DNA from: Bacillota bacterium
GTDB lineage: Bacteria > Bacillota > Sulfobacillia > Sulfobacillales > Sulfobacillaceae
Assembly: GCA_021841025.1 (NCBI GenBank)
Contig: JAKBWA010000029.1
Location: 1-64,000 of the forward strand
Direction: 5' to 3'
Length of the DNA stretch: 64,000 bases
Part shown: one piece after another, positions 764 through 52,818 of the stretch
Layout: the number at the start of each line of letters is the position of its first letter
Position numbering within the stretch: the first letter of the stretch is position 1
Position numbers and translations under genes: made by a program
Notes under the pieces: model-generated
The model's database searches: none
The model's input: the letters and a program-made list of their open reading frames with translations, nothing else
Told to the model about the DNA's origin: nothing

Positions 764-1876
764 CTAACGACCTATGGTTGCGGCTTGGAAGATCCTCCCG
801 ATATTTTCACCCGTTGTGACCAGCAACCCAGGAGTTTTTTGTATCGCCACTTCAAGGGACAAAGGGCCAGGTACCAAAGTGAAGACACCCGTCAGTCCCG
901 CTGCATAAAACGAGGATAAATCCGGCGGATAGGAGCCCACTACAGCTAAAACAGGCTTGGAGAGAGTGTGAGCCGCATTTATGACCATGCCCACCACCTT
1001 GCCCAAGAGGCTTTGGGCATCCAATTGTCCTTCTCCCGTGAGGACGACATCTGCACGTTGTACCCTCTCCTCCAGTTTCATCCATTCTGCCACCCTCACG
1101 GCTCCCGGCTCCAATTTCCCCCCTGCTGCTAAGATACCAAATCCCAGTCCTCCAGCGGCTCCACTCCCCAAATGATTAACATAGTCTTGTGATCCCTGGA
1201 GCATGGAAGCAAAATGAGCCATGGCACTTTCAAACGCAGATTTCATATCTTCATCAATTCCCTTTTGAGGTCCATAAAGCAAAACTGCCCCTTGCGGGCC
1301 CAAAAGGGGAACAAAGGTATCATACAAACCTGTTAGGGGCTTGGGCAATTGAGGCCAGACAATATGCGCGACTTCCCCGAGGCTCCGGGCCTGTGGGGGC
1401 AAGAGTTGGTTATGAGCGTCATAAAACTTAGTTCCTAATGCATGGAGAAATCCCAGTCCCCCATCGACTGATCCCGTGCCACCCAGGCTTACCACCACTT
1501 CATCAATATCAGGGTCTTGGAACGCTTGATCCACCAATAGCCCAGTGCCTTGACTCGTACTAGCCCACACCGATTCCCGTCTCTTGTCGACAGGAACAAA
1601 AGGCGTGCCCACAGAGGATTCCACCAAGGCAGTCCGCCCCCAGCGGATCCACCATCCATCTTGGGAGCGTCCGTAAGTGTCCACGGTCAAGCCAGGCACT
1701 TTTTTGCCTTGCAAGTACTTCACAAGAATATCTCCTGTGCCTTCACCTCCGTCAGCTAAAGGGCACATGTCCACGTCAATTCCTTCCGAGCGTAAGAGCC
1801 CTTCGCGCAAATACTCAGCAACTTCCAACGACTTCACAGAACCTTTGAAAGAATCGGGAGCTACCAAAATCCGCAT
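764..1876 (-). CDS. Glycerate kinase (GarK/GlxK family)
   Basis: 370 residues, normal for the type-1 glycerate kinase family that phosphorylates D-glycerate with ATP, usually giving 2-phosphoglycerate. The N-terminus MRILVAPDSFKGS and the segment ADGGEGT are family signatures, as are the later SLGGTGSVDGGLG and TGEGQLDAQS motifs. It is the last gene of the glycolate operon: its ATG directly abuts the glcD stop codon, and its ribosome binding site (AGAGGGG) lies inside the end of glcD, which suggests translational coupling. It would finish the glyoxylate to phosphoglycerate route encoded upstream. Whether the product is 2- or 3-phosphoglycerate is inferred from the family. Confidence 0.93.
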   Translation of the reverse strand: MRILVAPDSFKGSVKSLEVAEYLREGLLRSEGIDVDMCPLADGGEGTGDILVKYLQGKKVPGLTVDTYGRSQDGWWIRWGRTALVESSVGTPFVPVDKRRESVWASTSQGTGLLVDQAFQDPDIDEVVVSLGGTGSVDGGLGFLHALGTKFYDAHNQLLPPQARSLGEVAHIVWPQLPKPLTGLYDTFVPLLGPQGAVLLYGPQKGIDEDMKSAFESAMAHFASMLQGSQDYVNHLGSGAAGGLGFGILAAGGKLEPGAVRVAEWMKLEERVQRADVVLTGEGQLDAQSLLGKVVGMVINAAHTLSKPVLAVVGSYPPDLSSFYAAGLTGVFTLVPGPLSLEVAIQKTPGLLVTTGENIGRIFQAATIGR

Positions 1877-3322
1877 TTATGCCCCTCTTTTCGGTTCAAC
1901 AGTGGCGGAAGGAGTCGCCGACAATTCATGGCAAGTCGGTGCACTAGGCAGTAATTTTCCTGGATTGAGAAGCCCGGCGGGATCAAAGGCCTGCTTCAAG
2001 GCTTCTTGTGCGGCAATTTCTTGAGCCGTAAACTGCCGCAGCATGTCGTCGCGTTTCTCAATACCCACCCCATGCTCCCCGGTGATACTGCCGCCTAAGT
2101 TCACACAGACCGATAAAATATCTGACCCCGCTTGAACCACTCGCTTCACCATATCTGAGTCGTGTCCGTCATATAGCAAGAGGGGATGAAGATTCCCGTC
2201 ACCCGCATGAAAGACGTTGGCGATGGCCACGTCGTACGTTTCAGCGATATCACGAATTTTGGCGAGTGCTTCCGGAAGACGGCTTCTCGGAATAACGCCA
2301 TCCTGGACGTAATACTGGGGAGAAATCAAGCCCATCGCACCAAATGCTGTTTTGCGGTTAGCCCACCACCGGGCTTTTTCCTCGTCACAAGAAGGCAGTC
2401 TCACCTCACGAACTTGGTGGTTTTGCAAAACCTTTTGCACTCGCTGTGCCATTGCCGAAACTTCCTGGGCTTCCCCATCCACTTCAATTAAGAGTACCGC
2501 CGCTAAATTCTTTGGATAACCCACCCGGTAAGGACCTAATTCCACAGCCTTTATGGCCAGAGTATCCATCATTTCCAACGCTGCCGGAATAATCCCCTGG
2601 GCAACAATATCCGACACCGCCTGACTGGCTTCGGTGATGTCATCAAATAACGCGAGCACAGTTTCCGTACTCCTGGGTCTGGGCGTCAGTTTGATCCACA
2701 GCTTGGTGGCAATGCCAAAAGTCCCCTCTGATCCAATCATCACCCCCAGCCAATCAACATCATCCGGCTCACCTGCCAAATTTCCCAATATGGTCTTCTC
2801 TCCATTAGCCAAGATCACTTCTGCCATCACCACATGGTTGAGAGTGACTCCGTACTTGAGGCAATGCGGGCCTCCCGAGTTTTCAGCAAAATTTCCGCCA
2901 ATAGTGCAACTTTGCTGCGATGACGGATCTGGGGCATAAAAATACCCTAAAGGCGAAACGGCCTTCGTGATTGCTTGATTGATGACACCGGGTTCAACGA
3001 CCGCAATTTGATTGTTTACATCAATTTCTACGATCCGGTTCATGCGTGAGAGGTGAATAATCACAGAATTTTCCAAAGGCGTGGCTCCTCCGGAAAGACT
3101 AGTCCCGGCCCCTCTAGGCAAAAAAGGAATGTTGTGAGTGGACAAAATACTCACCACACGGCGGACTTGGTCCGTAGAGGTCGGCAAGACAACGGCACGG
3201 GGATTAGCTCTATATAAGGTGTAGGCGTCTTCGGAGTACGCCAGGAGATCCATGGGATCAGTAAGCACGTAATCCGCCCCTACCACCTCTCTGATCTGGT
3301 CTATCCAGCCGTCTGTCATCAT
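1877..3322 (-). CDS. glcD: Glycolate oxidase FAD subunit GlcD
   Basis: 481 residues, FAD-linked oxidase of the GlcD/D-lactate dehydrogenase type. The FAD-binding PCMH domain is at the N-terminal half (PRGAGTSLSGGATP near residue 70), and the C-terminal FAD-oxidase domain carries GDGNLHP and GGSITGEHGVG. It oxidises glycolate to glyoxylate at the membrane together with GlcE and GlcF. There are two adjacent ATG codons at 3322 and 3319; I give the first. One base separates it from glcE. With glcE next to it and glcF in the same operon, glycolate oxidase is much more likely than a lone lactate dehydrogenase. Confidence 0.92.
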   Translation of the reverse strand: MMTDGWIDQIREVVGADYVLTDPMDLLAYSEDAYTLYRANPRAVVLPTSTDQVRRVVSILSTHNIPFLPRGAGTSLSGGATPLENSVIIHLSRMNRIVEIDVNNQIAVVEPGVINQAITKAVSPLGYFYAPDPSSQQSCTIGGNFAENSGGPHCLKYGVTLNHVVMAEVILANGEKTILGNLAGEPDDVDWLGVMIGSEGTFGIATKLWIKLTPRPRSTETVLALFDDITEASQAVSDIVAQGIIPAALEMMDTLAIKAVELGPYRVGYPKNLAAVLLIEVDGEAQEVSAMAQRVQKVLQNHQVREVRLPSCDEEKARWWANRKTAFGAMGLISPQYYVQDGVIPRSRLPEALAKIRDIAETYDVAIANVFHAGDGNLHPLLLYDGHDSDMVKRVVQAGSDILSVCVNLGGSITGEHGVGIEKRDDMLRQFTAQEIAAQEALKQAFDPAGLLNPGKLLPSAPTCHELSATPSATVEPKRGA

Positions 3323-3323
3323 C

Positions 3324-4388
3324 TTAGCCCCCTTCTAGAATTCCCATGGGATCATAAGCGGTCTTTAACCGAGCCCAATAATCCGGCAACTTTGGTGGTT
3401 GGTCCAACCGGGAGCCTTGTAATACTCTGACGCCGCCTCCATTGAACCGAATCCATTCAACGAGCGATTTCACTGAGCTTCGTGGCACAAACCCGAAAAA
3501 ATCCCCTGATTGACATTCCACAGCGAATTCTCCATCCTTCCATGTCGCAACCAAATCCTCAATCCGGGTTAAGGGGACGGCCCCTTTAAGCGTTGCCCAG
3601 GACGAAGGATCTTGTGGCTGTGGCAGAACGGGAGGATTCTTCTCTTCCTGGGCCTCCTCTTTGGTCGCTGCAGATACCACATGGTCCATAGCCATTCCAT
3701 GCCATGCAGCCCATAACTTATAGCGCTCTTCCCCCGGGTTTGGTTCTCGCACTAGCATAATCGCGGCCCAAGGACGCGCTTGCGATATCAGTTGCCGGGC
3801 CTTAGCCGTTAAGTTCGCTGGGCTGTCTGTCCACATCCAGCTTCTTTGTTCGGGTAAAATCGGGCTCACTTTCAGTGTAATTTGTGTTATGACGCCCAAA
3901 TTCCCCCTGGATCCCAGAAACAAACGGGGCAGATTGTAGCCCGCCACATTCTTTACAACACCCGCCCCGGCACGGATCACCCCAAATCCCGGGCTCACCA
4001 CCACCAGACCCAGCACCCTATCCCGAAGAGGGCCATAGCCTCCGCGCCAAATTCCATCCACTCCCGCGGATAAGGCACCGCCAAGCGTATCATCTTGGCC
4101 ATCGGCAACCGTAAGGGGAATCCATTGGTCATGTTCTCGGAGTATAGCATTGAGGGTTTTTACACGCATGCCGGCCTCGACACTCACTACCAAATCTGCT
4201 GGATGGTAAGACAACAGGGAATCCCATGACGCCAAAGAATATTTCTCGGCGCCAGACTCAGAATTGGGTATCAAAAGCCGGTGGCCCAGACCCTCGATTC
4301 GCAGCTTTCCTCCTTGCTGTTCCGTTTGTCGAAACAGATCTAAGAGAGTTTGCTCTTTCTTCCAGGAAATACTTGCCGCCGCACTCAT
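3324..4388 (-). CDS. glcE: Glycolate oxidase subunit GlcE
   Basis: 354 residues, a second and shorter FAD-binding PCMH protein. Visible parts are the RIEGLGHR start of the domain, the GGALSAG and YGPLRDRVLGL stretch and the GAGVVKNVAGYNL motif typical of GlcE. The frame is open upstream to 4442, but that would overlap garR by 32 bases. The ATG at 4388 has an AAAGG-type ribosome binding site and leaves 22 bases after garR, so I use it. GlcE pairs with GlcD and GlcF in the membrane-associated glycolate dehydrogenase complex. The middle of the protein (around residues 240-270) has a charged, Glu-rich linker. Confidence 0.88.
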   Translation of the reverse strand: MSAAASISWKKEQTLLDLFRQTEQQGGKLRIEGLGHRLLIPNSESGAEKYSLASWDSLLSYHPADLVVSVEAGMRVKTLNAILREHDQWIPLTVADGQDDTLGGALSAGVDGIWRGGYGPLRDRVLGLVVVSPGFGVIRAGAGVVKNVAGYNLPRLFLGSRGNLGVITQITLKVSPILPEQRSWMWTDSPANLTAKARQLISQARPWAAIMLVREPNPGEERYKLWAAWHGMAMDHVVSAATKEEAQEEKNPPVLPQPQDPSSWATLKGAVPLTRIEDLVATWKDGEFAVECQSGDFFGFVPRSSVKSLVEWIRFNGGGVRVLQGSRLDQPPKLPDYWARLKTAYDPMGILEGG

Positions 4389-4410
4389 CGGGAACCGCCT
4401 TTCCCTTTTA

Positions 4411-5319
4411 TTACTCCATGGCCAAGTTGGCCCGTTTGGCAATCTCGGCCACCAAATACGAATGATCTAATTCGCCTTTGCCCTGGGCTAGCAGTGAGTT
4501 CATCATATCATGCACTAACGCGGTCAGAGGTGTTGACACCTCCATGTCTTGAGCTGTGTCCAAGGCAATATTCAAATCCTTGCGATGAAGACGCATTTTA
4601 AAACCCGGTTCGAACCGGCGGTCCAACACCCTTTGGCCATGAATTTCGAGGATCCGGCTGGATGCAAAGCCGCCTAACAAAGCCGAACGTACCTTAGCCG
4701 GATCCACACCCGATTTTTCGGCCAACACGAGAGCTTCACCAATGGCTTCAATGGTGATGGCCACAACGATTTGATTGCAGGTTTTGGTGACTTGCCCTGC
4801 CCCGCTGGGACCGATGTGAACAATGTTTTTGCCCATGACCTGAAATAGAGGGTAGGCCCGCTCAAAAGCGTGGACACTTCCCCCTACCATAATTGACAAG
4901 GTTCCTTCTTTCGCCCCAATGTCTCCCCCTGATACAGGCGCATCCAAGCTTTCAGCCCCTTTGGCTTGAGCTTCTTCCGCAATTTTGCGGGCAATCCGGG
5001 GGCTGACCGTCGACATGTCGATCAAAATCTGTCCCGCACGCACCCGGTTCATAATGCCGTGATCCCCAAAATAGACCTGATCCACGTCAGGTGTATCCGG
5101 CAACATTGTAATCACAATATCTGAGTCATCACATACTTGGGCGGGATGATTAGTGCTTTTCGCACCCAGCTTCACGACAGCTTCCATTTTTTGAGGGGTG
5201 CGATTATAGACGATGAGGGGATATCCTGCCCTTATCAAATTTTCTGCCATAGGACGCCCCATAATGCCAAGCCCAATGAATCCAACCGTCGGTTTTACAT
5301 TGTCAACTGTCACACTCAC
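4411..5319 (-). CDS. garR: Tartronate semialdehyde reductase (GarR/GlxR)
   Basis: 302 residues, beta-hydroxyacid dehydrogenase family. It reduces 2-hydroxy-3-oxopropionate (tartronate semialdehyde) to D-glycerate with NAD(P)H. The Rossmann motif GLGIMG lies at residues 16-21; DAPVSGGDIGAKEGTL is the substrate-binding signature, and GQVTKTCNQ carries the expected catalytic lysine. The start is GTG at 5319 with a strong AAAGGAG about six bases upstream. It sits between hyi and glcE in the pathway operon, which separates it from 3-hydroxyisobutyrate dehydrogenases of the same family. Confidence 0.92.
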   Translation of the reverse strand: MSVTVDNVKPTVGFIGLGIMGRPMAENLIRAGYPLIVYNRTPQKMEAVVKLGAKSTNHPAQVCDDSDIVITMLPDTPDVDQVYFGDHGIMNRVRAGQILIDMSTVSPRIARKIAEEAQAKGAESLDAPVSGGDIGAKEGTLSIMVGGSVHAFERAYPLFQVMGKNIVHIGPSGAGQVTKTCNQIVVAITIEAIGEALVLAEKSGVDPAKVRSALLGGFASSRILEIHGQRVLDRRFEPGFKMRLHRKDLNIALDTAQDMEVSTPLTALVHDMMNSLLAQGKGELDHSYLVAEIAKRANLAME

Positions 5320-5498: not shown

Positions 5499-6299
5499 TC
5501 AGTCGACAGATTCTCCCTTGCGGTAACGGTGCCAGAAACTCAAACTTTCATCTGTTGACCCTAAGGGGATATATTCCAAGCCAATATAACCCTCGTACCC
5601 GGCTTTCTCCAAGGCTTGGAAAATACGGCCATAGTGCAATTCACCCGTACCGGGCTGGTGGCGGCCGGGATTATCCGCAATTTGAATATGATCGATGTGC
5701 TGTCTTAACGCCGTGTAAGTATTGAGGATATCCCCTTGCGTACGTTGCATATGGTAGATGTCGTATTGAATTTTAACCGAGGGTCTTTGGGCTTCTTCAA
5801 TCAGCCTCAGCACTTGATTCGTCGTATTAAGAAAGAATCCGGGGATATCGAAGGGATTGATAGGCTCTATGACCAATGTGAGTCCGGCCTTATTCAATTC
5901 ATCAGCCGCATACCGCACATTGTTTAACAATGTGCGCCACGCATCTTCTTTAGACAAGTCATCAGGTTTCTTTCCCGCAAGGCAATTAAGCCTCGGTGTG
6001 CCTAAGGCCTGGGCATAGTGAATAGCTTCCGCCACACCATCTTGAAAATCCTGAACACGGTCTGGGAGAATAGCAATGCCGCGCTCCCCTTTCTCCCAGT
6101 CCCCTGCCGGCAAATTAAACAATACGATATCCAAGCGGTGAAGGTTTTTGGTTTGTCGCACGTCTTTTAAACCAAAGGCATAGGGAAACAAGAATTCAAC
6201 ACTGGTAAACCCCGCATCTTGGGCCCTTTCAAAACGTTCTAAAAAGGGGACTTCGGAATATAACATGGACAAGTTGGCGGCAAATTTCAACATGCTCAC
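5499..6299 (-). CDS. hyi: Hydroxypyruvate isomerase
   Basis: 266 residues, TIM-barrel xylose-isomerase-like family; E. coli Hyi has 258. It interconverts hydroxypyruvate and tartronate semialdehyde. The start FAANLSMLYSEVPFLERFE and the segment FTSVEFLFPYAF match the Hyi signature; IEPINPFDIPGFFL and QYDIYHMQRTQGD carry the expected metal-binding Glu and Asp residues. AAGGAGGA precedes a GTG at 6299 by five bases and an ATG at 6293 by eleven; I give the GTG. It lies directly after gcl, 51 bases apart. Confidence 0.92.
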   Translation of the reverse strand: MSMLKFAANLSMLYSEVPFLERFERAQDAGFTSVEFLFPYAFGLKDVRQTKNLHRLDIVLFNLPAGDWEKGERGIAILPDRVQDFQDGVAEAIHYAQALGTPRLNCLAGKKPDDLSKEDAWRTLLNNVRYAADELNKAGLTLVIEPINPFDIPGFFLNTTNQVLRLIEEAQRPSVKIQYDIYHMQRTQGDILNTYTALRQHIDHIQIADNPGRHQPGTGELHYGRIFQALEKAGYEGYIGLEYIPLGSTDESLSFWHRYRKGESVD

Positions 6300-6350: not shown

Positions 6351-8099
6351 CTACGTGAGAGGACTCGAAACACTTTGAGGCTCTTTGTCAATCACCGGAC
6401 TAAATTCTTGCACCTTATCTATGCTAGGGCCCATGGCCGCATCGGCTTCCCTTTCGATAAAGACTTCGACTAATACGGGTAACGACCTTTCTTTCGCTTG
6501 GTTTCGAGCCCAATCCAGCGCCTGTTCGAGCTCACCCGGTTCAACCACCCGGCGTCCGATTCCTCCCATGGCTTCCACGACCGCCACGTTATTCATCCCC
6601 ATACCGTCATTGTGATCGTAGCTGATGTCGACGCCGTAATTCATTTGATACTGGTACTTGGAGGGCTGACGGATGAGACCCAAATAGCCGTTGTTTAGCA
6701 TGACCATGACTAGGGGGATGTGATATTGCACTGCCACGGCAATTTCTTCCACGAGAAATTCAAAAGAATAATCGCCTACGACCGCCACAATTTCCTTGTC
6801 CGGAACGGCCAGCTTAACGCCGATGGCGGCGGGAATTTCCCATCCCAAGGGTCCGGCTTGTCCACAGACAAGATAGTGCCGGGGACGATACGTGCGTTGA
6901 AATTGCCCTGACCAAATCTGATAAAGGCCAATAGCGGTAGTAAAGATGGTATCTGGCCCAAAGGTATCATTGATGGCTTTGAAGACACGAGCCGGATGAA
7001 TGGGAATCGTGGTAATATCCATGACCCTATCAACACGTTCTTTAATATCCGCTACGCGTTCGACCCAGTTGGTAGGCGCCTTGGGAGGAGTAAGGAGTTT
7101 GGCTTGCGACACCAACTCTTCCAAAGCCAAACGCGCATCACCAACAATTCCTAAATCCGGTTCAATGATCCGGCCGATTTGCGTAGGCTCCACATCAATA
7201 TGAATAAATTTCCGCCCTTTAGTATAGACTTGCAAATCTCCGGTGTGCCGTTCCGCGAACCTGGCACCAATGGCTAAAACCAGATCGGACTCGAGAAAAA
7301 TTCGGTTGGCGGCCCGAGTCTGCGTTTGAATCCCCACGGTGCCCACATAAAGGGGATGGTCAGCCCCAATCACGCCCCACGCCATCAACGTTGGGGACAC
7401 CGGGATTTGCAAGTATTCGGCAAATTGGCGCAATAGATCTTCGGCTTGTGCATTGACCACGCCTCCCCCTGCCAAAATCAAGGGTTTCTTAGCCTCTTGC
7501 AGCATGGATAAGACCCGTGTAATCGCCAAGGGATTAGGGGGTATAGAAAATACCGGCAACGAACAGTCCACTTCCGGGTCATAGGAAATCTCCGCCTTTT
7601 GCACATCCAGCGGCAAGTCAATATGAACCGGCCCGGGCCGTCCTTCTTTGGCAATGCGAAAAGCCTCGCGAAATACCCAGGGCACTTGTGCAGGTTCCAT
7701 AACCAAAAAACTTTTCTTCACGACGGGCTTCACGATATCGACAATGTCCACGGCTTGAAATCCCTCGCGGTGCAGTTGCGATCGCGGCACTTGTCCCGTA
7801 ATCGTTATCATCGGAATCGAATCGGCCCAGGCTGTGTATAATCCGGTCACCATGTTCGTGCCGGCGGGTCCAGAAGTGCCAATAGCGACTCCCACTTTTC
7901 CCGTAATCCGTGACCAGCCGTCGGCCATATGGGTCGCGCCTTCTTCGTGGCGGGCGGTAATGGACAAAATGCGGTCAGGCACTTTAGACAGCGCCTGGTA
8001 TAAGGGCAATATGGCAGCCCCAGGAATGCCAAAGACCGCGTTAACGCCCTCATCGATAAGTACGGAGACAGCCGCCTCCATGGCGGACATTTTTGGCAT
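6351..8099 (-). CDS. gcl: Glyoxylate carboligase (tartronate semialdehyde synthase)
   Basis: 582 residues, ThDP-dependent enzyme condensing two glyoxylates to tartronate semialdehyde plus CO2. The three ThDP-enzyme domains are present: N-terminal PYR domain (FGIPGAAILPLY, GTSGPAGTNM), central domain with IGARFAERHTGD, and C-terminal ThDP/Mg domain (AVVGDYSFEFLVEEI). The frame is open to an ATG at 8117, but the ATG at 8099 has the better ribosome binding site (GAGGGTGGG) and its MPKMSAMEAA aligns with the E. coli start. The residue equivalent to Val51 of E. coli Gcl is glutamate here (Glu52, in ARHEEGATH), unlike characterised Gcl. The hyi-garR-glycerate kinase context supports Gcl rather than acetolactate synthase. 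Confidence 0.88.
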   Translation of the reverse strand: MPKMSAMEAAVSVLIDEGVNAVFGIPGAAILPLYQALSKVPDRILSITARHEEGATHMADGWSRITGKVGVAIGTSGPAGTNMVTGLYTAWADSIPMITITGQVPRSQLHREGFQAVDIVDIVKPVVKKSFLVMEPAQVPWVFREAFRIAKEGRPGPVHIDLPLDVQKAEISYDPEVDCSLPVFSIPPNPLAITRVLSMLQEAKKPLILAGGGVVNAQAEDLLRQFAEYLQIPVSPTLMAWGVIGADHPLYVGTVGIQTQTRAANRIFLESDLVLAIGARFAERHTGDLQVYTKGRKFIHIDVEPTQIGRIIEPDLGIVGDARLALEELVSQAKLLTPPKAPTNWVERVADIKERVDRVMDITTIPIHPARVFKAINDTFGPDTIFTTAIGLYQIWSGQFQRTYRPRHYLVCGQAGPLGWEIPAAIGVKLAVPDKEIVAVVGDYSFEFLVEEIAVAVQYHIPLVMVMLNNGYLGLIRQPSKYQYQMNYGVDISYDHNDGMGMNNVAVVEAMGGIGRRVVEPGELEQALDWARNQAKERSLPVLVEVFIEREADAAMGPSIDKVQEFSPVIDKEPQSVSSPLT

Positions 8100-8134
8100 A
8101 AGAAATCCCACCCTCATCTCAAAATGTTGATTCG

Positions 8135-9406
8135 CTACTCAGACAAGAAACCGTGACGTTGATAAGCCGTCCAAATTAAGTCGACGGGATGCATGGCCCG
8201 GGGCGTTTGGGACTGCGCTTTAAGCCCGGATTGAATCTGCAATATGCAACCCGGATTAGCAGCTGCCACCCACTGCACTTGTTGGGGAATCGTGGACACT
8301 TTGCGCTCTAACAACTGTTGAGCCATTTCAGGGTGCGTCAAACTATAAATGCCAGCTGCCCCGCAACAACGATCGGAATCCGTCATTTCACAGATCGTAT
8401 AGCCGGCTTTCTGCAACATCTGCCGCACCTCGGGTTTAATCCCTTGTGCATGTGCCAAGTGACACGGGTCGTGGACCGATATCTGCACCTGTTCCTGAGG
8501 CTTATCCACTTTAGGCAAAGGCAATTCAGGAAGTAGTGCCGTGATGTCAACTACCGCATTCTGAAATCGCTCAGCCCGTACTCGAAACGGGTCACTGGGG
8601 CCGAATAACTCCTGATATTCCTTTAACATCGCGCTACACCCTGCCGCCGTCACCACAACTATGGATGCACCTGAGGTTTCAAAGGCCTCGATGTTTTTCC
8701 TGGCCCACTCTCTCGCTATGTCAGGCTGACCGCCGTGCATGTGCAAAGCCCCACAGCAGCGTTGATTCTGGGGGATGATGACATCGACTTTCCCCAGTGA
8801 CAACAGATCAGCGGTATGACGGTTGGTGTCTGCATAGACTGTGTCCATCACACATCCCACAAAGAGCATCGCGCGTTGCGACAAATTAGAATGGCCTTTG
8901 ACGTGGTAGACCCGACTGAGATGTCTCGGGATGGTATCAGGAAGACCTAAAGTCAATCCTTCTAGCCTTTGGGGTATCCATTTGATTCGGGTAAGCCAGG
9001 ATCCCACCATGGGCTTTTTACTTAAGCGCGCCAAGCGTTGAAACCATCTTAGTCCTTTAGGCGACCCAAAGAACAATTGCAAAGGACGGGACACTGTGCG
9101 AAAAATCCTGAATGCTTCGGGTTGAAGGTCAGAAAACTCAGACTTGGCGGACTCGGCCCGCCAGGCTTCGACCAAATGGCCGGTCGGCACATGCGAGGGA
9201 CAGACGGCCTCGCAGGCCCGGCAATCTAAGCAATCATCCAAGGCTTTGGCGGCATGGCTGTTGAGTAGGGAGGGATCCTCTCGAAGACGCTCCAACAGGA
9301 ACACCCTCCCCCGCGGCGATTCAGACTCCAGACCCGTCGTCATGTAGGTAGGACAGGAAGACAGGCAAAGACCACAATGTACACACTGCCCAGTGTCCAT
9401 ACCCAT
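8135..9406 (-). CDS. glcF: Glycolate oxidase iron-sulfur subunit GlcF
   Basis: 423 residues. Two 4Fe-4S ferredoxin motifs are present (Cys8, 11, 14, 18 and Cys59, 62, 65, 69), followed by two CCG domains (QRCCGALHMHGGQ and DRCCGAAGIYSL). It passes electrons from GlcD/GlcE to the quinone pool. It is the first gene of the operon and is separated from glcE/glcD by three metabolic genes, an unusual split of the complex. ATG is at 9406; an in-frame ATG at 9400 sits at a better distance from GAGGGGGG and may be the true start. Confidence 0.93.
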   Translation of the reverse strand: MGMDTGQCVHCGLCLSSCPTYMTTGLESESPRGRVFLLERLREDPSLLNSHAAKALDDCLDCRACEAVCPSHVPTGHLVEAWRAESAKSEFSDLQPEAFRIFRTVSRPLQLFFGSPKGLRWFQRLARLSKKPMVGSWLTRIKWIPQRLEGLTLGLPDTIPRHLSRVYHVKGHSNLSQRAMLFVGCVMDTVYADTNRHTADLLSLGKVDVIIPQNQRCCGALHMHGGQPDIAREWARKNIEAFETSGASIVVVTAAGCSAMLKEYQELFGPSDPFRVRAERFQNAVVDITALLPELPLPKVDKPQEQVQISVHDPCHLAHAQGIKPEVRQMLQKAGYTICEMTDSDRCCGAAGIYSLTHPEMAQQLLERKVSTIPQQVQWVAAANPGCILQIQSGLKAQSQTPRAMHPVDLIWTAYQRHGFLSE

Positions 9407-10950: not shown

Positions 10951-11739
10951 TTAACCCATGTATCCTAGCCGTTCTGATATCTGCCGAGCAGCTTGCGCGA
11001 TCAAAGGTCCCACTTCGTTCGCCCGTTCCCATGACAAATGAGCACCCGGGGCGGAAATTCCGATAGCGGCAACAACCCGTTGACGGTAATCTACAATGGG
11101 TGCGGCCACACACAAGGCGCCCGCAACTTGTTCTTCATTGTCAATGGCAAACCCTCGCTCTCTTATGACGCTCAGTTCCTGCTCCAATTGGCGCCAATCA
11201 GTGATGGTGTGATCTGTAAATCGTTCCAAAGAACGTTTTTGCCCGCGAAACTGGTCAATCAATTCGCTACGATATGCCAACACCGCCTTGCCGACAGCGG
11301 TGCAATGAATGGGAGCGCGCCGTCCGACATTTAGCTGCATACGCAAAGGTTGATGCGCGTCAACCGTCGCGACGTATACCATGTCCAGACCATCTTCGAC
11401 CGCCACATTGACAGATTCGCCCAGTTCCGCAGCCAGACGGTCCATAATCGGCTCGGCTGCTCGATTAATCGGCCAAGCCCGGTTGGCTTTTCCGCTCATT
11501 TCAATCAGCCGCAAGCCAACCCGGTAGGCTCCCTGGGTTTCGTCCTGTTCCACGTAGCCCAAATCAATGAGAGTGTGGAGCAACCGGTAAGTCGTGCTCT
11601 TGTGCAACTCAGCGGCCTGAGCCAATTGCTTGAGAGACATGTCCGTATGCAAGACCAATTCTTCCAAAATACGGAACACGCGTTCTACAGAGTGTACGCG
11701 AACAGAATTTTCAGACTCTGAAACCACGTCCTCATCCAT
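10951..11739 (-). CDS. IclR-family transcriptional regulator
   Basis: 262 residues. An N-terminal winged helix-turn-helix (SVERVFRILEELV, then LKQLAQAAELHKSTTYRLLHTL) is followed by the IclR effector domain (HCTAVGKAVLAY, GFAIDNEEQVAGALCVAAPI, AIGISAPGAHL). The frame extends to a TTG at 11775, but the ATG at 11739 has a TTGAGGTG ribosome binding site eight bases upstream and starts MDEDVVSES. Family members of this type (for example AllR) control glyoxylate metabolism; the nearby glycolate operon with its palindrome is the obvious candidate target. That target is inference. Confidence 0.9.
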   Translation of the reverse strand: MDEDVVSESENSVRVHSVERVFRILEELVLHTDMSLKQLAQAAELHKSTTYRLLHTLIDLGYVEQDETQGAYRVGLRLIEMSGKANRAWPINRAAEPIMDRLAAELGESVNVAVEDGLDMVYVATVDAHQPLRMQLNVGRRAPIHCTAVGKAVLAYRSELIDQFRGQKRSLERFTDHTITDWRQLEQELSVIRERGFAIDNEEQVAGALCVAAPIVDYRQRVVAAIGISAPGAHLSWERANEVGPLIAQAARQISERLGYMG

Positions 11740-12122
11740 AGTCAACACCTCAACTTTCACTATTGGTCGTAACAATCTTTCTCTGGCATTGTAGCATTTT
11801 TGACAAACTGAGATGGCTCTAGTAATGCACAGGAGTACGTCTTTCTCACGAGAATTGCAAAACTCTTTTGGCCCGACACCGCCTGGGCACCCCTCTGAAC
11901 CATCCCCAGTTCTTTGAGGTCATTGCGAGGTCATTGCTGGGTGGGTTCTAGTGAACGAGACAAGACGAGCGCCTGACACCAAGCGTTGAACTCACCTTGG
12001 AATCTCTCAATCCCTCCAAAATTTTGCGAACGCTGACTGGTTGTCATGTTTATAAGGTTTTAACAATTCAGAACCCATGGTAATATGAATATCAATCCTG
12101 ACGTGACGAAAGGAAGGGTTTC
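11740..12122. other. Divergent intergenic region iclR / DIP1984 gene
   Basis: 383 bases without a gene. On the minus side an extended -10 (TGC TACAAT; 11788-11793 on the plus strand) could serve iclR. The stretch also has an 11-bp perfect tandem repeat (11916-11937). The plus-strand gene downstream has a strong AAAGGAAGG ribosome binding site just before 12123, and a weak TAATAT box near 12080. Confidence 0.5.
11916..11937. repeat. Tandem 11-bp repeat
   Basis: GAGGTCATTGC occurs twice back to back with no mismatch (11916-11926 and 11927-11937). One helical turn of spacing would place two copies of a binding site on the same DNA face. It may also be chance slippage. Confidence 0.7.
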
Positions 12123-44343: not shown

Positions 44344-47300
44344 TTATTTGATTAACTCGTTCTCCATCGCTTTATCCGCTGTGTCTTCTGCACCATGAAT
44401 AATCACATTGCGGTAGCGGGACATACCCGTTCCTGCTGGGACCAATTTTCCAATAATCACGTTTTCTTTGAGGCCTAGCAGGGGATCTCTCTTAGCCTTG
44501 ATGGACGCTTCCGTTAACACACGCGTTGTTTCCTGGAAGGACGCCGCTGACAGGAAAGAGTCCGTAGCCAAAGAAGCCTTGGTAATTCCTAGGACCACCG
44601 GTTTCGCCACGGCCGGAGTGCCTCCTCGCATCAGAACCTCGGCGTTCTGATCCTCAAAGTCAAAGCGGTCAACTAAGGCACCTGGCAACAGTGCGGTATC
44701 GCCCGCTTCCTCTAGCTTGACCTTGCGCATCATTTGACGAACCATCACTTCGATGTGCTTATCGTTAATATCGACACCTTGCACCCGGTAAACACGCTGG
44801 ACTTCCTGCAAAAGGTAATTTTGTACCCCGTTTAAGCCCATGACTCGCAATAAGTCATGCGGATTGACCGATCCTTCCGTCAATTCCTCACCGACATGGA
44901 CATGATCACCTTCGTGAACCCGAATCCGTGAGCCAAAAGGTACCGTATACGACTGGGATTCGTGTTCATCGTCATTGACCACCGTGATTTCGCGGCGCCC
45001 TTTGTTTTCACCCATGCGCACAATTCCGGCAATCTCCGCAATAATCGCTTGACCTTTCGGCTTGCGGGCTTCGAAAAGTTCTTCGACTCGAGGAAGACCC
45101 TGAGTAATATCGTCTCCGGCCACGCCGCCCATGTGGAAAGTCCGCATGGTAAGCTGTGTTCCCGGCTCTCCGATACTTTGCGCTGCAATAATACCCACAG
45201 CTTCTCCGACTTCAACAATGCCGCCCTTAGCCAAATTCCTTCCATAACAAGCCACACAAACTCCGAAACGAGACTGACAAGTTAAAACCGAACGCACTCG
45301 CAGTTCCTTTATACCCGCGTCAATAATAGCTTGCGCCGTATCTTCAACAAGCAGTTCATTACTATGAGCAAGAACCTCACCCGTTTCCGGATGGTTGACA
45401 TCCTCAGGAACTACTCGTCCAACCAGCCGATCATAAAAACTTTCGATAACCTGTCCGCCGTCCCGAATTTCCCGGACTACGGTCCCCTGCGTGGTGCCGC
45501 AATCCACTTCTCGCACAATAACATCCTGAGCCACATCAACTAGGCGTCTGGTTAGGTAACCGGAGTCCGCCGTCCGCAAGGCCGTGTCGGCTAACCCCTT
45601 CCTCGCGCCGTGTGTTGATGTGAAATACTCCAGCACTGTAAGCCCTTCTCGAAAGTTAGCACGAATCGGCAACTCGATAATCCGGCCCGAAGGATCCGCC
45701 ATTAATCCTCTCATTCCCGCAAGTTGCGATATCTGCTGCACGTTACCGCGAGCTCCCGAGGTAGCCATCATATATACCGAGTTGTTACGATCTAAAGTCT
45801 CCATCAAGGCCTGAGTCACACGCTCTTTAGCTCGCGTCCAAATACCGATGACCCGTTCATAACGCTCGTCAGCTGTGATCAGACCACGTCGGTATTGCCG
45901 CGTCACCTGCAATACCTCTTCCTCAGCTTCTTCAAGAATTTTCTTCTTGGATTCCGGAATAACAATATCGGATACCGAAATCGTCACTCCGGCTTTAGTC
46001 GCATACTGGAATCCTAAGGCTTTAATCCGGTCAAGCGTTTTGGCGGTGACATCATTTCCATACATGCGGAACATGTCTGCGACGATAACGGCCAGCTGTT
46101 TACGGCCAATGGTTTGGTCGATAAATCGTAGTTCCACAGGCAGTGCATCGTTGTATAAAAACCGCCCTAAAGTGGACGTGCGGCGTTGCCCGTCATAGCG
46201 CATGGTGATTCGCGCGTGTAGATCCAAAAATCCTTGGGCATAAGCCATCTCGCCCTCTTGGAGATCCGAGAGGACCATTCCTTCTCCCTTAGCGTTTTCT
46301 TTATCCATCGTCAAATAGTACGATCCCAATACCATGTCTTGAGTCGGAGTCACGACAGGTTGACCGTCCTTGGGATTAAGAATGTTCTGGGTCGACAGCA
46401 TGAGTACTCTAGCCTCAGATTGCGCTTCAGTGGACAAAGGCACATGCACGGCCATTTGATCTCCATCGAAGTCTGCATTGTAGGCTGTACACACGAGAGG
46501 GTGAATTTGAATAGCTCGCCCCTCCACCAGCACTGGTTCGAACGCCTGAATCCCCAACCGGTGCAATGTAGGTGCCCGGTTTAACAACACCGGATGCTCT
46601 TTAATGACATCTTCCAAGACATCCCAAACTTCGGGGCGCACGCGCTCCACCATACGCTTGGCCGATTTAATATTGTGAGCATATCCCTCGTTGACGAGTC
46701 TCTTCATAACAAATGGCTTAAACAGTTCAAGCGCCATTTCCTTGGGTAGTCCGCACTGATGCATTTTCAGTTTAGGGCCTACCACAATCACCGACCGTCC
46801 CGAATAGTCAACACGTTTTCCCAGCAAGTTCTGGCGAAAACGTCCTTGCTTTCCTTTCAGCATATCTGACAGTGACTTTAACGGTCTATTCCCCGGTCCC
46901 GTTACAGGACGCCCCCGACGGCCGTTGTCAATCAAAGCATCAACCGCTTCTTGCAACATACGCTTCTCGTTGCGGACGATAATATCCGGAGCTCCGAGGT
47001 CTAATAGTCTCTTGAGGCGATTGTTGCGGTTAATGACGCGTCGGTACAGATCGTTAAGATCTGAGGTCGCAAACCGTCCTCCATCAAGTTGCACCATAGG
47101 ACGTAAGTCGGGAGGGATTACAGGAATTACGTCCAAAATCATCCATTCTGGACGATTGCCCGATTGCCTAAATGCTTCGACAACTTCAAGCCGGCGGATA
47201 GCCCGGATTCGGCGCTGCCCTGAAGAGCTGTTGAGTTCTCCTCGCAGATCACTTGACAATTCTTCCAGATCCAGCTCCAACAGCAACTCCTTGATTGCTT

Positions 47301-47817
47301 CAGCTCCCATTCCGGCCCGGAAATGACTGCCGTATTTCTCTCGGTACTCGCGGTATTCCGATTCGATCAGCAACTGTTTCTTCATCAATGGAGTGGTTCC
47401 CGGCTCAATAACGACATATGCCGCGAAATAAAGAACCTTTTCCAAAGCACGGGGGGACATGTCAAGAATTAACCCCATGCGCGAAGGAATCCCTTTGAAA
47501 TACCAGATATGAGACACCGGCGCGGCCAGCTCAATATGCCCCATGCGTTCCCGCCGCACCTTGGAGCGTGTGACCTCAACCCCGCAACGGTCGCACACCA
47601 CTCCTTTATAACGGACCCGTTTGTATTTACCGCAGTGACATTCCCAATCCTTGGTCGGACCAAAGATCTTCTCGCAAAAGAGACCCTCGCGCTCTGGCTT
47701 CAAAGTGCGATAATTGATTGTTTCCGGTTTTTTCACTTCGCCCTTGGACCATTCCCGGATTTGTTCCGGAGAGGCCAGAGCAATCCGCATGGAGTCAAAA
47801 TGGTTAACGTCTAGCAT
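44344..47817 (-). CDS. rpoC: RNA polymerase beta' subunit
   Basis: 1157 residues. Zinc site 1 is [20 protein letters not shown] near residue 60; the catalytic Mg motif is [12 protein letters not shown]; the second zinc site is formed by CGTTQGTVV and [13 protein letters not shown]. The rudder, bridge helix ([10 protein letters not shown] to [20 protein letters not shown]) and trigger loop are in order. The length is typical for Firmicutes, without the large proteobacterial insert. Confidence 0.98.
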
Positions 47818-47837: not shown

Positions 47838-50800
47838 TTAGTAGTCCTCGCCGTCATTGTCATCGCCGTCATCCAAATCATCAGAATCCTCATCTTGATC
47901 CTCGTCAAGGGGCTCATCGAAAGACGTGTCTTCTGAGCCACGTCGCAGAATGGCGTAAGCATTTTCTGCTTCTTTGTCGAAATTCATGCCGCCACCAGGC
48001 TCAAATTCTTTGGACGCTCCTTCTGAGTCCTCCATTAAGCGATGAAGTTCCTGACCTTCTGTTTCGTCAATTCCCTCGGGGAGCAGATCAAAGGCTTTGG
48101 CTTCATTGATTGGCTCATCGTCAAGTTCACGAATCTCAATTTCTTCTTCGAGTTCGTTCAGAATCTTGACGTCCAGTCCCAGGGATTGCAGTTCTTTGAT
48201 TAACACCTTGAACGACTCGGGTACTCCCGGTTCTGGAACATTTTCTCCCTTTACAATCGCCTCATAGGTCTTAACCCGGCCGACCACATCATCGGACTTC
48301 ACTGTCAAGAGTTCTTGCAGAGTATAGGCCGCTCCATAAGCTTCCAAGGCCCACACTTCCATTTCTCCGAAACGCTGTCCGCCAAACTGCGCCTTACCAC
48401 CCAAAGGCTGTTGGGTTACTAACGAATAAGGACCGGTCGACCGTGCATGAATCTTGTCGTCTACCAAGTGGGCCAATTTCAACATATAGACAATCCCGAC
48501 AGTAATTTCGTTGTCAAAAGGCTCGCCAGTTCTTCCGTCATATAGCACCGTCTTGCCGGAAGCTGGCAAGTTAGCCTTTCGGAACAGCTCCTGCAAGTCG
48601 TCCTCTTTCACGCCGTCAAATACGGGCGTCGCGACTTTCATTCCCAGAGCCTTTGCAGCCCAGCCCAGATGGGTCTCCAGCACCTGGCCAATGTTCATTC
48701 GGCTGGGAACCCCTAAGGGATTCAGCACAATTTCCACGGGTGTGCCGTCAGGGAGAAAAGGCATATCCTCTTCCGGAAGGATGCGAGAAATAACTCCCTT
48801 GTTGCCGTGGCGGCCGGCCATTTTGTCACCTTCAGATATCTTTCTTTTTTGGGCGATGTACACCTGAACCAACTCATTAACACCCGGGGACAATTCGTCA
48901 CCCTGGTCCCGTGTAAACACCTTCACATCCACCACAATGCCGGATTCACCATGGGGCACCCGCAGGGATGTGTCGCGAACCTCACGCGCTTTCTCCCCGA
49001 AAATGGCCCGAAGTAACCGTTCTTCGGCAGTGAGTTCGGTTTCACCTTTGGGCGTGACTTTACCAACTAACACATCCCCAGGACGGACTTCGGCGCCAAT
49101 GCGAATGATTCCCCGGTCATCCAAGTCCTTGAGCACTTCTTCACCAACGTTGGGAATATCCCGCGTAATTTCCTCAGGACCAAGTTTTGTGTCCCTGGCA
49201 TCGCATTCATATTCTTCAATATGAATGGAGGTAAACACATCTTCTTTGACAAGCTTTTCGCTCAGCAAGATGGCGTCCTCGTAGTTGAATCCTTCCCATG
49301 GCATGAAAGCTACCAAAACATTGCGGCCTAATGCCAGTTCGCCATGGTCAGTGGACGGGCCGTCAGCAATAATTTGATTGGCCTTAACCCGTTCTCCCTT
49401 GTGTACAATCGGTTTTTGGTTAATGCACGTTCCTTGGTTGGACCGCGTGAACTTTAACAAGTCATAGGTCGAGACTGTGTGATCGTCGTTGCGAATGACA
49501 ATCTTGTTAGCTTGGACTCGGTCTACAACGCCGTCTTTTTCACTAATGCTGACAACCCCGGAATCCCTGGCCGCTTTGGCCTCCATTCCCGTTCCGACAA
49601 TCGGAGAATCCGTCACCAACAATGGCACAGCTTGTCGCTGCATGTTGGCACCCATTAAGGCTCTGTTCGCATCGTCGTGCTCAAGAAAGGGAATCAATGC
49701 TGTCGCAATCGACACCACTTGCTTTGGAGACACGTCCATAAAATCGACCCGGTCCGGACTTTCTTCACCAATCTCGTGCCGGGATCGTGCCGTCACCCGG
49801 GTAGCCAGGAAATGTCCATCGTCACTCAAGGGTTCATTCGCCTGGGCAATGACAATATCATCTTCTTCATCAGCGGTCAGATAGACAATTTCGTTGGTCA
49901 CTATGCCCTGTTCCTTATCCACCCGCCGATAGGGTGTTTCAATAAAGCCGTAAGGATTAATTCGCGCAAAAGTCGACAACGACCCGATCAATCCAATATT
50001 GGGTCCTTCAGGGGTTTCAATAGGACACATTCTGCCATAGTGGGAGTGGTGAACATCTCTTACCTCAAATCCTGCGCGCTCGCGCGATAGCCCCCCAGGC
50101 CCTAAAGCCGATAGGCGCCTTTTGTGCGTGAGTTCCGCCAAAGGATTAGTCTGGTCCATAAACTGCGAGAGTTGTGATGAGCCGAAAAACTCTTTGACAG
50201 CAGCCACCACTGGACGAATATTAATCAAGGCTTGAGGGGTAATGGCTTCAATGTCTTGAATCGTCATGCGTTCTCGCACAACTCGTTCCATTCGGCTTAA
50301 TCCCACACGAAACTGGTTTTGTAATAATTCACCTACCGAACGAAGACGGCGATTGCCCAAATGGTCGATGTCATCGGTGATACCAACACCCTCGAATAAA
50401 TTGGTCAGATAATTGAAGCACGCAATAACATCTTCTCGTGTCACGGTTTTGAGAGCCATATCAGGCTGGCCATTGGAGACAACCATCACTTCTTCACCGT
50501 TAGCTAGCTGCACTCGCATGGTTTTGACTTGGGCCTCATCTAATGCTAGGGCCTGTTCTCGGTCAATATGATCGCCTTCATGAACAAGAAGCTCTCCCGT
50601 TTCCGGGTGGACAATGGTCTCGAGCGCTATAGTTCCGACAATCCGACGCCGCAGAGAAAGTTTTTTGTTAAATTTGTAACGTCCCACACTCGCCAAATCA
50701 TATCGTTTGGCATCAAAAAACAGAGACTCTAAAAGGTTCTGTGCACTTTCTACGGTAGGAGGCTCCCCCGGCCTCAGGCGCTTATATATTTCAATAAGAG

Positions 50801-51488
50801 CGTCTTCTTGCGTCTTCGCCACGTCTTTGGACAACGTGGTACGAATGCGTTCGTCATCTCCAACCGCATCAAGAATTTGCGCATCGGTTCCTAGTCCCAA
50901 CGCCCGCATCAGGACCGTTGCCGGCAATTTTCGCGTCCTGTCTATACGCACGGACAACACATCGTTAGAGTCTGATTCAAATTCCAACCAGGCTCCGCGG
51001 TTAGGAATCATGGTGGCAAAGTACAGCTTCTTACCTGTGGGATCGATCTGTTCGCCAAAATAAACTCCCGGCGAACGAACCAACTGACTGACAATGACTC
51101 GTTCGGCACCATTGATGATAAAGGTGCCTTTGTTGGTCATCAGGGGAAAATCCCCCATAAAGACGTCTTGTTCCTTCACTTCACCGGTCTCTTTGTTGAT
51201 GAGCCGCACACGCACGTGCAACGGCGCTGCATAGGTTACATCGCGCGCTTTACATTCTTCCACAGAATATTTTGGGGTCTTCAAATTGTAATCTACAAAC
51301 TCTAAAATGAGATTGCCGGTAAAATCCTGGATGGGAGAAATGTCCCGAAACATTTCGCGCAACCCTTCGCGCAAAAACCATTGATACGAATTTTGCTGTA
51401 TCTCAATCAGGTTGGGCATGTCGAGCACTTCGTCAATTCGCGCAAATGACACCCGCCCTGGGTGCTCGGTTTGGAGAGAATAAGCCAT
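47838..51488 (-). CDS. rpoB: RNA polymerase beta subunit
   Basis: 1216 residues. The rifampicin-binding region [20 protein letters not shown] followed by [20 protein letters not shown] is wild type. The C-terminus carries an acidic tail of about 25 residues ([20 protein letters not shown]). It is 20 bases from rpoC. The gene has its own promoter candidate at 51596-51624. Confidence 0.98.
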
Positions 51489-52631: not shown

Positions 52632-52659
52632 TCCATCACCTCCTTGAGCAAAGAATTCC

Positions 52660-52696
52660 AAAAAAAATACCTCCACCCAAGAACAATGGTGCGAGG
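52660..52696 (-). terminator. Leader attenuator before rplJ
   Basis: On the minus strand CCTC(G)CACC pairs with GGTGGAGG across a 10-base loop, followed by TA and eight T. It is 28 bases upstream of the rplJ ATG and so can end transcription before the gene. With the L10 leader upstream it forms an attenuation switch. Confidence 0.8.
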
Positions 52697-52734
52697 ATCA
52701 AGGACTTGTTTTAAAAAACTTATCCAAAATTCTA

Positions 52735-52779
52735 CCTATAGTGGGATGTTTAAGCCATAACAGCCCCCACTGTCTTGGG
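52735..52779 (-). promoter_or_regulatory. L10 leader (ribosomal protein L10 binding site)
   Basis: The minus-strand RNA reads CCCAAGACAGTGGGGGCTG, then GGCTTAAACATCCCACTATA and GG. The AGACAG, then G-rich strand, GGCUUAA and closing C-rich strand fit what I remember of the Firmicute L10 leader. The stem CAGTGGG/CCCACTA-type pairing closes it. L10-(L12)4 binding here would favour the attenuator at 52660-52696. Confidence 0.7.
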
Positions 52780-52789
52780 TTCGTGTTTC

Positions 52790-52818
52790 AATTTAGCATG
52801 GAGTTTAAAGAAAAGCAA
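52790..52818 (-). promoter_or_regulatory. Promoter of rplJ-rplL
   Basis: TTGCTT (52818-52813), 17-base spacer, TAAATT (52795-52790) with TGC directly before it (extended -10). The predicted start site falls just upstream of the L10 leader. Confidence 0.65.

Follow-up and report, generated by a model that had tools for sequence, protein, structure and literature searches.

A predicted glyoxylate carboligase gene with the canonical glutamate

The window, meaning the whole 64,000-nucleotide stretch of DNA that was analysed, carries on its minus strand a gene for a predicted Glu-type glyoxylate carboligase of 582 amino acids (gcl; 6351..8099), identified by PDB matches and by its position in a phylogenetic tree. 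The reading frame is open from the ATG at 8099 to a stop codon at 6351-6353. An in-frame ATG at 8117 is an alternative start that would yield 588 amino acids; the start at 8099 is favoured because it is preceded, at a distance of a few bases, by GAGGGTGGG, which resembles a ribosome-binding site, and because the alignments of orthologues begin at MPKM/MLKM. The best-matching named Gcl orthologues come from Sulfobacillus, which makes it probable that the genome belongs to this genus or to a near relative.

The gene is part of a cluster on one strand with the order glcF-gcl-hyi-glxR-glcE-glcD-glycerate kinase (glxK). The genes for hydroxypyruvate isomerase (hyi; 5499..6299, minus strand; TIGR03234, 364.5 bits, cut-off 353), tartronate semialdehyde reductase, also named 2-hydroxy-3-oxopropionate reductase (glxR; 4411..5319, minus strand; TIGR01505, 387 bits, cut-off 341) and glycerate kinase (764..1876, minus strand; TIGR00045, 268 bits, cut-off 168) all score above curated cut-offs. 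Three further genes match glycolate oxidase subunits best, but below cut-off: a glcF-like iron-sulphur subunit (8135..9406, minus strand; PRK11274, 240 bits, cut-off 333), a glcE-like FAD-binding subunit (3324..4442, minus strand; from the open reading frame list and a family match) and a glcD-like subunit (1877..3322, minus strand; PRK11230, 496 bits, and TIGR00387, 468 bits, both below cut-off). The listed TTG start of the glcE-like reading frame overlaps glxR, and the true start probably lies further inside it. A gene for an IclR-family regulator (10951..11775, minus strand; family match), separated from the cluster by a plus-strand reading frame, is a possible regulator of the gcl cluster; IclR genes are found near Glu-type gcl in other phyla too. 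Elsewhere in the window's genome there is a separate ilvB, within an ilvC-leuA-leuB-ilvB-ilvE cluster (gene names read from the sequences), and because the genome has its own ilvB in this ilv/leu cluster the window gcl is not needed for valine synthesis.

At a distance from the gcl cluster, a ribosomal protein L10 leader was detected on the minus strand at 52655-52797 (Rfam RF00557, 55 bits), upstream of more minus-strand genes. It is followed by reading frames of 1216 (47838-51488) and 1157 (44344-47817) amino acids, which by size and order would fit RNA polymerase subunits.

The codon of Glu52 lies at 7944..7946 (minus strand). As the first-pass annotation had proposed, full-length alignment with Escherichia coli Gcl (2PAN) places this residue, within ARHEEGATH, opposite Val51 (ARHVEGASH) in a gap-free vicinity; its likening of the residue to acetolactate synthase (ALS) was also borne out, with Glu52 aligned to the catalytic Glu of those enzymes (RHEQ/RHES). 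In ThDP enzymes this Glu protonates and deprotonates N1' of the cofactor, with one known exception, Gcl, although the source does not name it at that point (PMC6350894), and a published survey describes substitution by Val as characteristic of the entire Gcl family (PMC3534367). The same Glu is present in 7/7 other Gcl orthologues first taken from the window's own family (74-83% identity to the window protein) and in the second gcl copy (L274) of one own-family genome; Glu52 is therefore not a sequencing error. That genome, from the window's own genus (G006; C98, C64), has two Glu-type gcl clusters (L273 and L274) that differ in gene order, one being arranged as in the window and the other having glcF between glcE and glcD, and the two gcl products share 83% and 75% identity with the window protein.

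The window protein groups with glyoxylate carboligases

Compared with the PDB, the best matches of the window protein were all Gcl (E 1e-175 to 1e-170), while the best ALS match stood at about 1e-93. The protein passed the cut-off of NF008431, a glyoxylate carboligase family (820 bits, cut-off 791), and scored below that of TIGR01504, also glyoxylate carboligase (658 bits, cut-off 711), as did several other Glu-type proteins. A careful tree of 55 proteins separated the Gcl clade, including the window protein, from ALS at 100/100, and a quick tree of 97 rows agreed; the column of residue 51 was excluded from both. Thus, on the phylogenetic check that the first-pass annotation had proposed, the window protein does not fall inside the acetolactate synthases.

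Five residues specific to E. coli Gcl (I393, L421, L478, I479 and H285), which we take from the structural literature to line the substrate pocket, are all present in the window protein (I390, L418, L475, I476 and H285), and this Ile/Leu/Leu/Ile/His set occurs in nearly all Glu-type Gcls. At the same sites 12 of 13 ALS proteins have Val, Met, Met and Val, and none has the His; the position of the ALS tryptophan is Pro479 in the window protein. The window gene therefore has the RHE-motif Glu of ALS but neither the Val/Met/Met/Val set with Trp, nor a place in the ALS clade, nor one in an ilv/leu cluster. The RHE Glu itself is not diagnostic of ALS, since it is common to most ThDP decarboxylases (94%; PMC3534367). 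With Glu52 the window protein also departs from the published description of a Gcl as having Val in place of Glu (PMC3534367) and, judged by that description, would fall outside the family; we argue that membership of the family should not be decided by Val, because in the census and tree described below it marks only one nested clade.

The first-pass annotation had raised the alternative that a carboligase with a wider range of substrates had been recruited to the pathway. An ALS-like enzyme with a broad donor range (pyruvate and glyoxylate), brought into a glyoxylate cluster, would agree with the Glu shared with ALS and with the 53 NCBIfam families that match at E<0.001, mostly ALS among the matches listed. 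The score against TIGR00118 (ALS), 511, is near but below the cut-off of 538, which two deeper Glu-type relatives from Bacillota exceed. However, the separation of Gcl from ALS on the tree, the presence of all five Gcl residues without the ALS Trp, a dedicated ilvB elsewhere in the genome and the recurrence of the same gene partners in several phyla make this recruitment improbable. As judged from the tree, the Gcl-specific residues and the operon, the window protein is a real Gcl and not an ALS.

Glu-type enzymes are common among Gcl homologues

The distribution of Glu and Val was assessed with a profile (A2) built from 12 Glu-type and two Val-type sequences and run against an even sampling of phyla. 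For the window's own phylum the query was the window protein and the threshold 1e-130, loose enough to admit Val types like that of E. coli. The census was confined to phyla with a previously known Glu-type gene, and it is therefore not a survey of all bacteria; its counts exclude seed genomes. Every match in Pseudomonadota was Val-type (47/47, with 0 Glu), the only Glu enzyme from this phylum being a seed, that of Inquilinus limosus. Actinomycetota had both forms (23 Glu, 13 Val), and all matches were Glu-type in Chloroflexota (4), Acidobacteriota (1), Methylomirabilota (4) and other Bacillota (7). Glu is thus common among Gcl homologues, the very finding that the first-pass annotation had named as counting against its view of the window gene as an exception among Gcls. 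The gene is therefore no exception, and what has to give way is the rule of a Gcl family without this Glu. No earlier report of a Glu-type Gcl was found in the open-licence literature.

Within Pseudonocardia, 8/29 of the loci taken were Glu-type and 21/29 Val-type, and several genomes held two copies. Two of these (G459, with L122 and L129; G1603, with L310 and L311) each have one Glu and one Val copy, every copy lying beside hyi and glxR. A contig scan that yielded 80 loci, every one of them Glu-type, was set aside when estimating frequencies because Glu itself formed part of one of the two patterns searched for. An in-frame TGA in three matches was considered as recoding and rejected: no stop lies inside the aligned protein, and the TGA is most likely the ordinary stop codon, lying where the match ends.

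Neighbouring genes were located with the proteins encoded in the window as tblastn queries, as calling of reading frames was noisy in GC-rich loci; such a search may miss remote hyi and glxR genes and unrelated kinds of glycerate kinase. Both hyi and glxR were found near gcl at 7/7 own-family loci and at 21/21 Val-type loci. Among actinobacterial Glu types both were present in 9/12 and at least one in 12/12, and at the single Acidobacteriota locus (L259), where one flank is short, the isomerase and reductase genes are both present. At Glu-type loci of other Bacillota, both were found in 3/7, at least one in 5/7 and neither in 2/7, while in Chloroflexota and Methylomirabilota hyi or glxR was found at 1/4 and neither at 3/4. 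The reduced contexts contain IclR genes, FAD oxidoreductases, a sulfatase and transporter genes. Because hyi and glxR are both absent nearby, function may differ in some of the deeper Glu-type genes. Two deep Bacillota proteins (L112 and L114), Glu-type and within the Gcl clade, exceed the ALS cut-off of TIGR00118 but reach neither Gcl cut-off, and databases may therefore list them as ALS.

A single change between Glu and Val

Both trees required a single change between Glu and Val. The Val-type Gcls form one clade (100/100) nested among Glu-type rows. Its closest sister is the I. limosus protein (98/90), and two actinobacterial proteins come next (100/100); a clade uniting all Glu-type Gcls was rejected (AU test, p=0.0014). 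Because the ALS outgroup also has Glu and the tree requires only one change, Glu is ancestral and Val derived once. These comparisons suggest that the Glu form came first and is the more widespread of the two, and that the E. coli form lost the Glu in one later event. That Glu52 reverted recently from an ancestral Val, or results from an error in the sequence, would fit the Val of the well-characterised Gcls and the survey that treats Val as characteristic of the family (PMC3534367), but it is scarcely credible for a residue found in every other own-family orthologue taken and in all sampled matches outside Pseudomonadota and Actinomycetota, on a tree where the Val clade lies deep within Glu.

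The two types are separated by 34 columns. From Glu-type to E. coli Gcl the changes include N82D, A/G113D, D/E283N, Y393S, E421T and S445D (window numbering). The codon of Glu421 lies at 6837..6839 (minus strand), and in the tree set the residue is Glu or Asp in all Glu-type Gcls, Thr in all Val-type Gcls and Gly in ALS; that of Ser445, in GDYS, lies at 6765..6767 (minus strand), and every Val-type Gcl in the tree set has Asp448 at the aligned site. The transitional Glu-type proteins, from I. limosus (L109) and the two actinobacteria (L184, L217), already show some of the changes, namely Asp113, Asp246 and Ala399, but retain Asn82, Glu424 and Ser448 (E. coli numbering). The co-changes are confined to few branches and, from these data, cannot be called compensatory.

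Discussion

Family, gene context, distribution and the single change on the tree are established directly here, and from these the catalytic activity of the window protein and the role of Glu52 are inferred. We consider it highly probable that the window gene encodes a true Gcl of a Glu lineage ancestral in the family, using canonical ThDP activation, and that the Val51 enzymes arose through one loss. The predicted enzyme would join two molecules of glyoxylate with release of CO2 to give tartronate semialdehyde, which the hyi and glxR products together with glycerate kinase would convert to phosphoglycerate, while GlcDEF would supply the glyoxylate from glycolate. Glu52 would hydrogen-bond N1' of ThDP and so promote the imino tautomer and the ylide, as in ALS, and this canonical activation would be combined with the substrate pocket of a Gcl. 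Given a Glu together with Gcl residues and Gcl gene partners, Glu-assisted activation is the simplest reading. The first-pass proposal of a Gcl with a different mechanism is accordingly upheld as to family, glyoxylate cluster and canonical Glu, and its mechanistic part takes the form of an expectation that ThDP activation would be unlike that of E. coli Gcl.

We know of no Glu-type Gcl that has been assayed as a purified enzyme. Gcl activity was reportedly shown in Pseudonocardia dioxanivorans by Grostern in 2012; in what is presumably the genome of this organism Gcl appears to be Val-type, and we do not use it as proof of Glu-type activity.

On the proposed history, Glu enzymes would be the ancestors of Val51 enzymes such as E. 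coli Gcl, the Glu having been lost once, together with the fixation of many other changes. As a variant of this explanation, Glu-type and Val-type enzymes could be two mechanistic classes for the same reaction, the loss of the acid in the Val class being compensated elsewhere, for example by Asp82, Asp113 or Asp448 (E. coli numbering); Glu52 may then matter in ways that single swaps cannot reproduce. The class-separating columns, with the substitutions listed above, and the transitional proteins, which carry only some of them, point in this direction. However, co-changes on one or a few branches amount to few events, which may have nothing to do with residue 51, and we regard the variant as rather unlikely. 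A broader formulation, which we advance tentatively and hold to be less likely than not, is that there are two distinct Gcl classes: an ancestral, widespread one with Glu, and a derived one in which the Glu was lost once with compensating changes in the active site, some genomes (e.g. in Pseudonocardia) keeping both paralogues, possibly for different conditions.

From these alignments and trees, the published rule that Val51 marks the whole Gcl family is valid for one derived clade alone. Should the Glu-type enzymes be active Gcls, that single clade is what departs from the use of this Glu by ThDP enzymes, and before/after pairs, transitional sequences and two-form genomes would make the loss of a key catalytic residue, and what was gained with it, open to experiment. 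Because some genomes hold both forms, the puzzle of the missing glutamate can be addressed with natural pairs. The window Gcl is no isolated anomaly, yet it runs counter to a rule stated for its family and offers material with which to test that rule.

Looking across known systems, the window protein can be aligned end to end with E. coli Gcl (EC 4.1.1.47; E 2.6e-171, 48% identity), shares its five Gcl-specific residues, and has the hyi and glxR partners that also accompany Val-type gcl. It differs in having Glu52, Asn82, Gly113, Glu283, Tyr393, Glu421 and Ser445 where E. coli Gcl has Val51, Asp, Asp, Asn, Ser, Thr and Asp and, unlike the E. coli gene, it forms one cluster with glcDEF. With the ALS large subunit (IlvB/IlvG) it shares whole-length homology, the RHE-motif Glu and the equivalent of Arg284, whereas the pocket set, clade (100/100) and gene cluster are those of Gcl. 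The closest parallel in gene content is the glc-gcl cluster of Sulfobacillus thermosulfidooxidans, for which a figure legend gives IclR, glcF, gcl, hyi, glxR, glcE and glcD, nearly the same gene set as in the window; the passages on this cluster make no mention of the Glu and route glyoxylate via malate synthase, not Gcl (PMC5418355).
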